This document shows positions 1-42,816 of a DNA stretch of 64,000 bases, piece by piece (the first letter of the stretch is position 1; the number at the start of each line of letters is the position of its first letter). The notes under the pieces were generated by a model that ran no database searches, was not told where the DNA came from, and worked only from the letters and a program-made list of their open reading frames with translations. The stretch spans positions 186,001 through 250,000 of the forward strand of contig NZ_CP047349.1 of NCBI RefSeq assembly GCF_011045835.1, read 5' to 3'. Both the position numbers and the translations under genes were made by a program. This stretch comes from Proteus terrae subsp. cibarius. Lineage in GTDB: Bacteria; Pseudomonadota; Gammaproteobacteria; Enterobacterales; Enterobacteriaceae.

Positions 1-630
1 TTAATTAACAATATTCAATTTACGCCTGCTGATGAGAAAAAATTAGTTAATGATCAACTGAAACTCATTGCGGAAACATCAAAAGAAGCGAGTCAATTAT
101 TAAATGAGTATATTGCTTTTGCTAATAAGAGAGCATCTGCTCATCTTAATGATGAAGTGATAACTGCTTGGGCAACTAGAACTCAATCAATGAAAGCACT
201 AGTTAAACGCCAAGAAATGGCGGCTCAATCTGCGTATCAACGACAAGTTAACTTATTAGAGCAATCAATCAAAGTAGCTGAGAAACAAGGTATTTCTCAA
301 AAACAAACATCGATTGCAATTGATGAGTTACCAGATTCTAAATTGTTTCTGTTAGGTGTTCCTCTGTTGCAATCACAGCTAGAAACTTTAGTGGCAACAG
401 GTGCTGATTTTGATAGTGATTATGATCAAAATACGGCAATGTTAGCGACCCTTGCTGTGGGCGCAAAATTACAAGATAACTTCCAAACTTACCGTTTTCT
501 ACGTACTCCTGAAGATCCTGTGAAACGTGATAGTCCTCGTCGTGCATTTATGATGGTACTTTGGGGCGCTATTGGTGTTTTAGCGGGTGCAGGTGTTGCA
601 TTAGTAAGACGCAGTTCATTAAAAAAATAA
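1..630 (+). CDS. wzzE: ECA polysaccharide chain-length regulator WzzE, 3' part
   Basis: The frame is open from base 1, so the N-terminal part lies outside the window. WzzE is an inner-membrane co-polymerase that works with WzyE to set the modal length of enterobacterial common antigen chains. The visible 209 residues are mostly helical and charged, as expected for the periplasmic coiled-coil domain. They end in a hydrophobic segment (about MVLWGAIGVLAGAGVALV) followed by a short basic tail, the usual C-terminal membrane helix and cytoplasmic end of Wzz proteins. Its place just before wecB is that of E. coli wzzE. The assignment rests on this architecture plus synteny. Confidence 0.9.
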   Translation, partial: LINNIQFTPADEKKLVNDQLKLIAETSKEASQLLNEYIAFANKRASAHLNDEVITAWATRTQSMKALVKRQEMAAQSAYQRQVNLLEQSIKVAEKQGISQKQTSIAIDELPDSKLFLLGVPLLQSQLETLVATGADFDSDYDQNTAMLATLAVGAKLQDNFQTYRFLRTPEDPVKRDSPRRAFMMVLWGAIGVLAGAGVALVRRSSLKK

Positions 631-39933: not shown

Positions 39934-40479
39934 ATGTCAAAAAGCGAGAATAATCTGATCTGGATAGATCTGGAAATGACCGGTCTTGATCCTGAATGTG
40001 ACCGTATCATCGAAATTGCCACTATCGTGACAGATCCTCAACTTAATATTTTAGCCGAAGGCCCCGTAATTGCAGTACATCAATCAGATGAACAATTAAG
40101 TTTAATGGATGAATGGAATACACGCACCCACACTGGTAGCGGCTTAGTTGAGCGGGTAAAAGCCAGTTCGTATGATGATAATTCAGCACAAAAAGCGACA
40201 ATTGAATTCCTAGAAAAATGGGTACCAAAAGGTGTATCACCTATCTGTGGTAATAGTGTGGGGCAAGATAGACGTTTTCTATACCGTTATATGCCAGAGC
40301 TAGAGCAATATTTTCACTACCGTTATCTTGATGTGAGCACATTAAAAGAATTAGCTCGTCGTTGGAAACCTGAAATTTTAGAAGGTTTTGAGAAAAAGAA
40401 TACGCATCAGGCATTAGATGATATTCGTGAATCTATTGCAGAGCTTGCTTATTATCGTAAAACCTTTATTAAAGAGTAA
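39934..40479 (+). CDS. orn: Oligoribonuclease
   Basis: Orn is the essential DEDDh 3'-5' exoribonuclease that degrades RNA dinucleotides (including pGpG) to mononucleotides. The 181 residues show [12 protein letters not shown] (Asp and Glu of Exo I), [11 protein letters not shown] (Exo II) and [12 protein letters not shown] (Exo III His/Asp). It is followed by the glyVXY tRNA genes, as in E. coli. Confidence 0.98.
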
Positions 40480-40645: not shown

Positions 40646-40721
<76 letters not shown>

Positions 40722-40757: not shown

Positions 40758-40833
<76 letters not shown>

Positions 40834-40868
40834 AATCTTTCACTTATAATTGTCAAAACTTACCAAAT

Positions 40869-40944
<76 letters not shown>

Positions 40945-41661
40945 AGTTTTTTCTCTTCTGCTTCATAAAATCTCATTTTTTAATCTCCATAAAGAAAATT
41001 TTAATTTTTTCTCTCGCTTTTTTAAATATCGACTACACTGTTTTAGGGTGCAGGTTAAGGAATTTTACTTAATACGCGCAAAGAGAGTGTGTAGGATTTT
41101 TGCTCAAAAAAGAAAATGGCATTACTGCATGTAAGATCAAGCTATTTTTTTGTGATCTATCTTTGATCTTTGCTTGCATTTCTATTTTGACAGCACTAGA
41201 ATGTGCGCCTTTCCTCATTTAGGGGGAAACGAGAGGTAAGATCATTTTTTAGGATTTAGGCCTTTATTCTGTTAAACATGCATTGAATAGTATTTTAGAA
41301 AAAGAAAAGGGTTTTTCAGGCTTTTCTTTAAAAAAACGTGATATATATTCTACTATTCTTTAAATCTTCCCAAACCGATTTATCCACAGTGAGATGCTGA
41401 TAACCATCGCATCTAAGCACTATTTATTTTTTTACTGCACAGAGTTATCCACAAGCACGTATCATTAAGTGATTAGGATATTATTCTCTTCAATAAAATG
41501 ATTGTATTTTATATCTAATTGATAACTAAGTTTATTTTAATTTTTTAAATTTTGAGTCTTAGTTCGCTTGAATTTTTTGTTCATGTTGATAGGCAAGGGA
41601 TTTTTATTTTATTCACAGAGGAAATTAATGGTTACTCGTAATGCGTTTATTCTGTTAAAAA
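40945..41661. other. datA: datA-like locus with DnaA-box cluster (gene-free)
   Basis: This 717-base gap between the tRNA-Gly genes and queG has no supported gene. It holds three perfect matches to the DnaA box TTATNCACA, all on the plus strand: TTATCCACA at 41380-41388 and 41445-41453, and TTATTCACA at 41609-41617. A weaker box-like TACTGCACA (41433-41441) sits three bases before the second. A one-mismatch IHF site is at 41512-41524 (minus). GATC occurs at 41135, 41154, 41165 and 41240. In E. coli, datA, which with IHF promotes hydrolysis of DnaA-bound ATP, lies in this same glyVXY-queG neighbourhood. The boxes are seen; function is inferred. Confidence 0.75.
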
Positions 41662-42816
41662 TTAAGCGTCACGAGGTAAGCCTTTAGTTATCGCCCTTAC
41701 TAAGCGTTTTTGTTGTGAAGTCTGTATTTTTACTTCTTTCTCATTTCTCTTTGCTGTCTGTTGTGCAATCGCCCAGTTTAAATGTTCATCTAAAACATCA
41801 CTCAATCCAAAGCGTTCTTGCAAGGCAAGTATAATTTTATCTTGATAAGGTGCATTTCCTAACGCCACGCTAATATTTCTAAGCCAACGTAAATAGCCAA
41901 TACGGCGGATCGGTGAACCCTCTGTAATACGCAGAAATTTATCTTCATTCCATTGGAAAAGATCGAGTAATTCTGGGGTATGAAGCGCTCTTCTTGGAGA
42001 GAAATCTTCTTCGTCAGTCAGTGATGAAAAACGATTCCAAGGGCAGATAAGCTGGCAATCATCACAGCCATAAATACGATTACCCATCAGAGGACGAAAT
42101 TCTTCAGGAATAGCGCCATCGAGTTCGATAGTGAGATAAGAAATACAGCGACGAGCATCAATAGTATAAGGTTCAACAATGGCACCTGTCGGGCAGGTTG
42201 TCATACAGGCGACACATTTACCGCATTGCTCTTCAACTGGGTTATCCGTAGGTAAAGGTAAATCAATCAGTAATTCACCAAGGAAAAACCAAGAGCCTGC
42301 TTGATTGTTAATAACAAGTGAGTGTTTACCAACCCAACCAAGACCTGCCTTAACGGCTAATGGTCTCTCCATAATAGGTGCTGAATCAACGAAAGGACGA
42401 AAGTTGACTACCCCTTGATATTCGAATTGCTGACAATATTGTGAAATTCTTTCACCGAGTTTTTTAAGACGTTGTCTTAATACTTTGTGATAATCCCGAC
42501 CAAGTGCATAACGGCTGATATAACCTTGTTCTGGATTATTTAGGGTTCGTGCAAAAGCAGCATCCGTAGGAAGATAATTCATTCTCACACTGATAATACG
42601 TAATGTACCCGGAACCAGTTCATGAGGTCTGGCTCGTGTCATTCCATACTTTTCCATCCACGCCATTTCACCGTGATATTGCTTATCTAACCACGCTTGC
42701 AGGCGAGGTTCTTCAGGTGATAAGTCAGTATCACATATCCCTGTTTGTTGAAAACCTAGCTCAGAACCCCATAATTTAATGTTTTGAGCGAGAAGATTAA
42801 GATCGAGTGATGACAT
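41662..42816 (-). CDS. queG: Epoxyqueuosine reductase
   Basis: QueG carries out the last step of queuosine synthesis in tRNA (epoxyqueuosine to queuosine) using cobalamin and two 4Fe-4S clusters. The 384-residue protein has CGKCVACMTTCPTGA and CDDCQLICPWNR as cluster ligands, plus YALGRDYHKVLRQRLKKL and RPFVDSAPIMERPLA of the cobalamin domain. It is convergent with the tRNA-Gly operon. In E. coli nnr lies between queG and tsaE; it is absent here. Confidence 0.97.
   Translation of the reverse strand: MSSLDLNLLAQNIKLWGSELGFQQTGICDTDLSPEEPRLQAWLDKQYHGEMAWMEKYGMTRARPHELVPGTLRIISVRMNYLPTDAAFARTLNNPEQGYISRYALGRDYHKVLRQRLKKLGERISQYCQQFEYQGVVNFRPFVDSAPIMERPLAVKAGLGWVGKHSLVINNQAGSWFFLGELLIDLPLPTDNPVEEQCGKCVACMTTCPTGAIVEPYTIDARRCISYLTIELDGAIPEEFRPLMGNRIYGCDDCQLICPWNRFSSLTDEEDFSPRRALHTPELLDLFQWNEDKFLRITEGSPIRRIGYLRWLRNISVALGNAPYQDKIILALQERFGLSDVLDEHLNWAIAQQTAKRNEKEVKIQTSQQKRLVRAITKGLPRDA

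Follow-up and report, generated by a model that had tools for sequence, protein, structure and literature searches.

In E. coli, datA is the DNA site that switches off DnaA, the protein that starts replication. In strain K-12 it lies at 94.7 min, in the gap between glyV-glyX-glyY and queG, and its essential elements are the DnaA boxes 2, 3 and 7 together with an IHF-binding site; a further box, box 4, is stimulatory without being essential. The DnaA residues R281, R285 and R334 are needed for DDAH in E. coli (PMC5742627). Read-through from the tRNA-Gly promoter reduces the binding of IHF at datA, and IHF binding there largely coincides with the duplication of datA; that work calls for a timing factor beyond read-through, and its main text makes no mention of SeqA or GATC (PMC10950094). 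Comparative studies have covered datA in 59 E. coli genomes (PMC4585315) and DARS2 across the gamma-proteobacteria (PMC8682772).

The locus considered here lies in a 64-kb stretch of Proteus DNA (the window, meaning the whole stretch that was analysed) and has the same neighbours and the same orientation as datA of E. coli K-12. It is explained here as a datA orthologue, with a promoter-like element of its clade that points toward datA and with a hypothesised gating of that element by SeqA; the probability of this explanation is put at about 0.85, and that of the SeqA part lower, at somewhat below even.

The box cluster between the tRNA-Gly genes and queG

A gap of 717 bp (40945-41661) separates three tRNA-Gly(GCC) genes, which end at 40944, from queG on the minus strand, and an orn-like open reading frame is present at 39934-40479. 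The gene order orn, glyV, glyX, glyY, queG is the same in E. coli MG1655, which bears out the placement claimed in an earlier interpretation of this DNA (the sequence-only reading). The gap and its borders contain the following features.

40646-40721, 40758-40833 and 40869-40944, plus strand: three tRNA-Gly(GCC) genes found by ARAGORN, equivalent to glyV-glyX-glyY, in an order that matches E. coli MG1655
41380-41388, plus strand: DnaA box 1, TTATCCACA, an exact match, invariant in 20 Proteus genomes
41433-41441, plus strand: DnaA box 7, TACTGCACA, with two misfits, a 9-mer 12 bp upstream of box 2
41445-41453, plus strand: DnaA box 2, TTATCCACA, an exact match, invariant in 20 Proteus genomes
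41512-41524, plus strand: predicted binding site for IHF (IBS), TATCTAATTGATA, which differs from YAANNNNTTGATW at one position and lies 97 bp before box 3
41609-41617, plus strand: DnaA box 3, TTATTCACA, an exact match, 164 bp from box 2
41662-42816, minus strand: queG (epoxyqueuosine reductase), an open reading frame with a 99% identical relative in Proteus columbae; this gene borders datA in E. coli

The sequence-only reading had listed three exact TTATNCACA boxes in one orientation, a half-match touching the second box and an IHF site with one mismatch. The three boxes were confirmed at 41380, 41445 and 41609, all on the plus strand, the half-match was found as TACTGCACA at 41433-41441, and the IHF site was confirmed as TATCTAATTGATA at 41512-41524. 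Its chance expectation needed revision, since the figure of 0.02 assumed equal base use; scaled from shuffles, the expectation is 0.042 per 717 bp, and the Poisson probability of at least three boxes in 717 bp is then 1.2e-5. The whole window holds five exact TTATNCACA matches in 64 kb, three of them in the gap, compared with a shuffle mean of 3.76. Genome-wide, no clear enrichment of single boxes was seen (223 vs 209 for the reversed pattern), so that what calls for an explanation is their arrangement. A looser box-pair pattern has one match in the same genome, the present locus, but the reversed control also has one. An alternative IHF site with one mismatch at 41491 was dropped, being poorly conserved among the 20 Proteus genomes.

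The spacing of the core is close to that of E. coli. The distances from box 1 to box 2 (65 bp in Proteus, 67 in E. coli), from box 2 to the IHF site (67 and 65) and from box 2 to box 3 on the same strand (164 and 162) differ by two bases, and the distance from the IHF site to box 3 is 97 bp in both species. Both also have a two-misfit box 12 bp before box 2, TACTGCACA in Proteus and TTGTAAACA in E. coli, the latter 9-mer being, as the published text implies, box 7. The Proteus IHF site is one mismatch off the consensus, unlike that of E. coli datA, and Proteus lacks the reverse-strand box 4 that follows box 3 in E. coli; the best reverse site in the window has three misfits. All essential datA elements (boxes 2, 3 and 7 and the IHF site) are thus predicted in the window, with only box 4 missing. 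The datA-like interpretation of the sequence-only reading is largely upheld by the shared neighbours, the site content and the near-unchanged core spacing. It was right to expect fewer boxes than in E. coli, insofar as box 4 is absent, and wrong to suggest a different spacing as far as the core is concerned, box 1 and box 3 being 229 bp apart in both species; the change lies between the last tRNA and box 1, which are 18 bp apart in E. coli and 435 bp apart in the window.

Judged by its place, site content and spacing, the cluster in the gap is a datA orthologue. That it also functions as datA we infer from the biochemistry of E. coli and from the conserved sites and DnaA residues. The DnaA encoded in the same genome (G000:C1:1-1700) is 88.7% identical to that of E. 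coli, its domain IV (residues 374-467) is 100% identical, and R281, R285 and R334 are kept. The dnaA gene and datA are 227 kb apart on contig C1.

The promoter-like element and the GATC trio

The 435 bp between the last tRNA gene and box 1 contain a GATC trio and a promoter-like element, and a terminator-like hairpin follows box 1. Neither the trio nor the promoter-like element was named in the sequence-only reading.

41135-41168: GATC trio, at 41135, 41154 and 41165 (intervals of 19 and 11 bp), shortly before the -35 element
41174-41209, plus strand: stable-RNA-type promoter-like element, of a pattern present in 61 of 61 clade loci
41388-41432, plus strand: terminator-like hairpin (41388-41421) with T tract, -10.9 kcal/mol, z -3.1, 7 T in 8

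The promoter-like element consists of a -35 sequence TTGCAT (41174-41179, 3/6 consensus bases), a 17-bp spacer, a -10 sequence TAGAAT (41197-41202, 5/6 consensus bases) and the G+C-rich discriminator GTGCGCC (41203-41209), and transcription would start near 41209. A scan for consensus promoters did not list the element at 41174-41209. The stretch 41130-41215 is nearly invariant across the 20 Proteus genomes, and the pattern TTGCNN-17-[TC]A[TAG]AAT is found 60-360 bp before box 2 in 61/61 loci of the Morganellaceae clade compared with 58/12200 shuffles (0.5%), a pattern that was written after the sequences had been seen and a set of loci that includes a few duplicates. On the opposite strand it occurs in none of the 61. 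These loci comprise 20 from Proteus, 23 from genus g162 (probably Providencia, by kinship), six from g165 and 12 from Xenorhabdus, Photorhabdus, Morganella psychrotolerans and relatives; g165 is taken as Morganella because the 400 bp that precede queG in the M. psychrotolerans locus are contained in its locus L227. The promoter and GATC counts do not include one g162 locus (L212), whose fetched piece lacks the box 2 unit. In seven loci of the Xenorhabdus or Photorhabdus type, the promoter-like element stays beside datA and no tRNA was found in the sequence covered.

An origin of the extra stretch from a pseudo-tRNA was considered and rejected, as local alignments of the 61 post-promoter segments with tRNA-Gly were within the shuffle range in all cases but one, the Photorhabdus locus L038 (22 vs a shuffle maximum of 20). 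A match of 10-11 bases to the tRNA 3' end is found in four loci of the Photorhabdus type (G345, G435, L037 and L038).

The GATC sites stand at -39, -20 and -9 from the start of the -35 sequence in 20/20 Proteus loci, and at -49, -31 and -20 in g162, where they are intact in 20, 22 and 22 of 23 loci, respectively; the exceptions are a locus in which the whole trio is displaced by one base, a second with its first site at -39 and not -49, and a third that lacks the first site. Base shuffling yields three GATC about 0.1% of the time. In the genome of the window, four sites have the exact trio spacing, and only the one at datA is followed by TTGC; G297 and G345 each have one further site of this combination elsewhere than at datA. 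The idea that GATC arrays generally accompany the tRNA-Gly promoter was rejected: the 150 bp before the first tRNA contain no GATC in E. coli or the window, and, of the other loci in which a first tRNA can be recognised and 150 bp of upstream sequence is available, five have a single GATC.

In the proposed mechanism, IHF would bend the DNA between box 7/box 2 and box 3, and the bend would let ATP-DnaA assemble across the loop and its ATP hydrolysis be stimulated, which would lower the level of initiation-competent DnaA after replication has started. RNA polymerase starting at the promoter-like element would travel toward datA; part of this transcription would end, in the window, at the hairpin that separates box 1 from box 7. 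From the conservation of the element and the work in E. coli, we propose that the clade promoter supplies the transcription that clears datA; it would replace the tRNA-Gly read-through of E. coli and keep IHF off datA until needed. In Proteus and g162, passage of the fork would leave the GATC trio hemimethylated and SeqA would silence the promoter, transcription would then stop sweeping IHF off, and IHF would bind the newly copied datA, leading to the inactivation of DnaA.

The clade promoter and its gating by SeqA are proposed because of three things: the read-through in E. coli, the silencing of promoters by SeqA and the phasing of the GATC sites by about three turns. The dnaA and gidA promoters are made inactive by SeqA for part of the cycle (PMC8488378), and efficient binding of SeqA in vitro calls for pairs of GATC sites with a phasing of two to three helical turns (PMC5145175). 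The outer sites of the trio span 19+11 = 30 bp (2.9 turns) in Proteus and 18+11 = 29 bp (2.8 turns) in g162, and SeqA is encoded in 10/10 genomes searched. The idea that, in Proteus and its sister genus, datA has a promoter of its own whose three GATC sites sense fork passage through SeqA is tentative, and its chances are put at somewhat below even. Such gating cannot be general, because the trio is absent from the loci of g165 (Morganella), Xenorhabdus and Photorhabdus; G335 has three GATC at a different spacing.

Clustered GATC sites are also a mark of promoters under methylation-dependent phase variation. Such variation is described for the gtr genes of Salmonella (PMC2909390), and the trio might be a switch of this type, or the operator of another regulator, GATC itself being palindromic, rather than a SeqA site. 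This is unlikely, though it deserves some weight. In the upstream DNA of g162, where 21/23 sequences are distinct, the GATC columns stand out with a mean major-base frequency of 0.93 vs 0.60 elsewhere, and the spacings of 11 and 29-30 bp correspond to about one and three helical turns. Besides GATC, only short T runs are kept in this DNA, which leaves little room for a longer operator in g162.

Conservation of the core and its reach

The conservation analysis covered 123 family loci, namely 80 taken from 154 genomes with queG (mainly one per genus, several with queG near a contig end being left out), 41 of 80 named loci assigned to the family by name, the window and E. coli. The counts include related and partly overlapping genomes, with six locus pairs identical over the last 250 bp, L036 and L189 identical over 400 bp, and the last 400 bp of L045 contained in L227; because some loci overlap or duplicate, not all represent independent genomes. 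The 123 rows used for the hairpin and box 7 offsets include the Photobacterium locus L097, which fits the looser spacing allowed there and was removed from the pair counts.

A box pair beside queG, that is, TTATCCACA followed 157-165 bp on by box 3 with at most one misfit, was found in 122/123 family loci. Lack of the boxes in related genomes, which the sequence-only reading had named as grounds for its refutation, was looked for and did not refute it. The distance from box 2 to box 3 is exactly 161 in 79 of the 122 loci, and box 3 is exact in 116/122. An IHF match with at most one misfit lies at -95 to -99 from box 3 in 87/122 loci, compared with 0-9 in 18 control windows. Box 7 with at most two misfits is present 12 bp before box 2 in 104/122, while at other offsets from -40 to -9 two misfits are reached by 0-5% of loci, except for 19% at -10. 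Box 1 (78/122) and box 4 (only 41/122) were found less often with at most one misfit. The alignments show that selection keeps box 2, box 7, the IHF distance and box 3, and that boxes 1 and 4 vary more. In the one exception, G277 (L144), no tRNA-Gly is present beside queG, and no pair was found beside queG or elsewhere in the genome.

All 20 Proteus genomes have identical boxes 1, 7 and 2, while the spacer from box 2 to the IBS reaches only 0.83. Since the sequence of L020 ends 37 bp after box 2, it is uninformative on the IHF site and box 3; in the 19 loci whose DNA reaches box 3, this box is exact in all and lies 164-165 bp from box 2, and the IHF site is also kept in all, with one mismatch in the 16 loci that place it exactly 97 bp ahead of box 3, and one base further off in the remaining three. 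Genome-wide, the pattern TTATCCACA, 148..158, TTATNCACA was found in 91/149 family genomes, irrespective of adjacency to queG, and its reversed control had one match in all 149. The pattern is present in 87/95 genomes of at least 2.5 Mb, and 50/58 genomes without it are smaller than 2.5 Mb (as read from the table); of the eight larger genomes without the exact pattern, three (G283, G291 and G351) have a pair whose box 3 contains one misfit. G269, G328 and G352 have more than one match.

This fixed spacing bears on the idea that the locus is a passive sink that titrates DnaA without stimulating ATP hydrolysis. Three exact boxes would indeed bind DnaA, datA itself was first seen as a titration site (PMC5835720), and box 4 is absent; the spacing of a sink would be free to vary, however, whereas that of box 7, the IHF site and box 3 is kept across the family, which makes a sink improbable.

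Even less probable is that the boxes and the hairpin mainly control an unannotated small RNA or stop tRNA read-through, with replication control secondary. The conserved promoter-like element and the terminator-like hairpin in the window would suit such a role, as would the attenuation of transcription by DnaA bound at box 2, known from E. coli (PMC10950094). E. coli datA and the window both have a hairpin between boxes 1 and 7, although a scan for terminators did not list the one at 41388-41421. A terminator in this position across the family was rejected, since a hairpin of -5 kcal/mol or lower with a T tract is present in only 40/123 loci (mean z -0.51), and it is claimed for the window alone. 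The sole site listed by the scan in the gap, at 41073-41093 (0.8 expected from shuffles), was also rejected, as by eye it is not kept in L018, L019 and L020. A structured small RNA was rejected as well, the would-be RNA being no more structured than shuffles (z -0.43), and in Rfam only tRNAs scored above the gathering score in the gap region; YrlA at 40783-40915, which overlaps two tRNAs, scored 35.8 vs a gathering score of 69. Because the RNA is without structure beyond that of shuffles, selection would seem to act on transcription and not on the transcript. Family loci beyond the Proteus clade, most of them with a gap shorter than 350 bp, moreover keep the box-IHF core.

A chance cluster in an AT-rich gap, to which single boxes near chance frequency in the genome and the control match of the looser pair pattern might point, is already refuted by the conservation in 122/123 family loci and disfavoured by the probability of 1.2e-5 for three boxes.

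Several further variants were observed. In four Proteus genomes (G005, G009, G010 and G016, with loci L016, L015, L017 and L020), about 640-960 bp of extra DNA lies between the last tRNA-Gly and datA, possibly marking an insertion hot spot, and the promoter-like element and box 2 are intact in these genomes. Two other Proteus loci have five (L007, G013) and six (L008, G014) tRNA-Gly copies instead of the usual three. In L144 (G277), the reading frame adjoining queG resembles ygfZ by eye. Tandem 20-bp repeats, each with TTATCCACA, are found near a contig start in a 0.9-Mb genome (G328:C4:10-198), and in G352 (C3:77491 and 85069) the box pair is present in two inverted copies of apparently one sequence, apart from datA.

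Beyond the family, the comparison took in 40 queG-side gaps, drawn from 20 further families in the order and corresponding to 40 of 126 genomes with queG (family f18, which has queG, was not sampled). The box pair is found beside queG in f5 (1/1, L247 = G039) at 161 bp and in f11 (2/2, L257/L258 = G045/G070) at 165 bp, and a different box cluster is found there in f21 (3/3 loci, L271-L273). The other 34/40 have no TTATNCACA within 900 bp on the queG side, orthology of the gap being shown for a minority of them at most; one has a single TTTTTCACA. Likewise, no TTATNCACA was seen within 800 bp in 18 named loci out of 80, which belong to Alteromonas, Shewanella, Aeromonas and others, L074 being covered over 95 bp only, which brings the queG-side loci outside the clade without TTATNCACA to 52 (34 + 18).

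The cluster of f21 matches one of the Vibrionaceae, and the two together were found on the queG 3' side in 24/24 loci (21 among L075-L109 plus L271-L273). In all 24, a box 2-like TTA[TC]CCACA is preceded by ACAGA[CG] and followed by an inverted box with at most one misfit 18-19 bp on and, at a distance of 262-281 bp, by TTTTCCACA or TTGTCCACA. In 22/24 loci, TGTGNTTAA follows at 214-233 bp; of the other two, one has it at 261 and one lacks it. At +120 to +125, the best IHF match has at most one misfit in 16/24. The tRNA-Gly genes were found beyond the cluster in 9/9 loci scanned. By these features, the Vibrionaceae cluster is a candidate for a divergent datA. A Vibrionaceae datA was not met in the literature searched, which is weak evidence because 'datA' is indistinguishable from 'data' in searches, and an account outside E. 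coli may exist in older datA papers.

Relation to known systems

Like DARS1 and DARS2, the Proteus locus is a non-coding cluster of DnaA boxes, and DARS2 also uses IHF. The DARS cores, however, contain three uniquely arranged boxes, of which I and II are opposed (PMC8682772), whereas the boxes found in Proteus are all unidirectional around one IHF site.

The dnaA and gidA promoters of E. coli, which are sequestered by SeqA and Dam, have clustered GATC by the promoter, as has the Proteus element in genomes that encode SeqA. The predicted SeqA site of Proteus differs from them in that it has three GATC only and would control a DNA element, not a protein gene. A separate promoter with a GATC array beside datA makes the explanation by fork passage and SeqA directly testable.

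A close counterpart of the clade element is PglyVXY of E. coli, a stable-RNA-type promoter that also points toward datA and is described with TTGC.., a spacer of 16-17 bp, TA.AAT and a G+C-rich discriminator (PMC10950094). E. coli reads datA from this tRNA-Gly promoter, whereas the clade element lies downstream of the tRNA genes and has no tRNA after it, and the clade would in this way have separated the tRNA promoter from the need to transcribe datA. If the proposal is true, the GATC/SeqA sensor would supply, for the clade, the timing factor that is missing in the E. coli work, and two lineages would have wired one DNA device to different transcription inputs.
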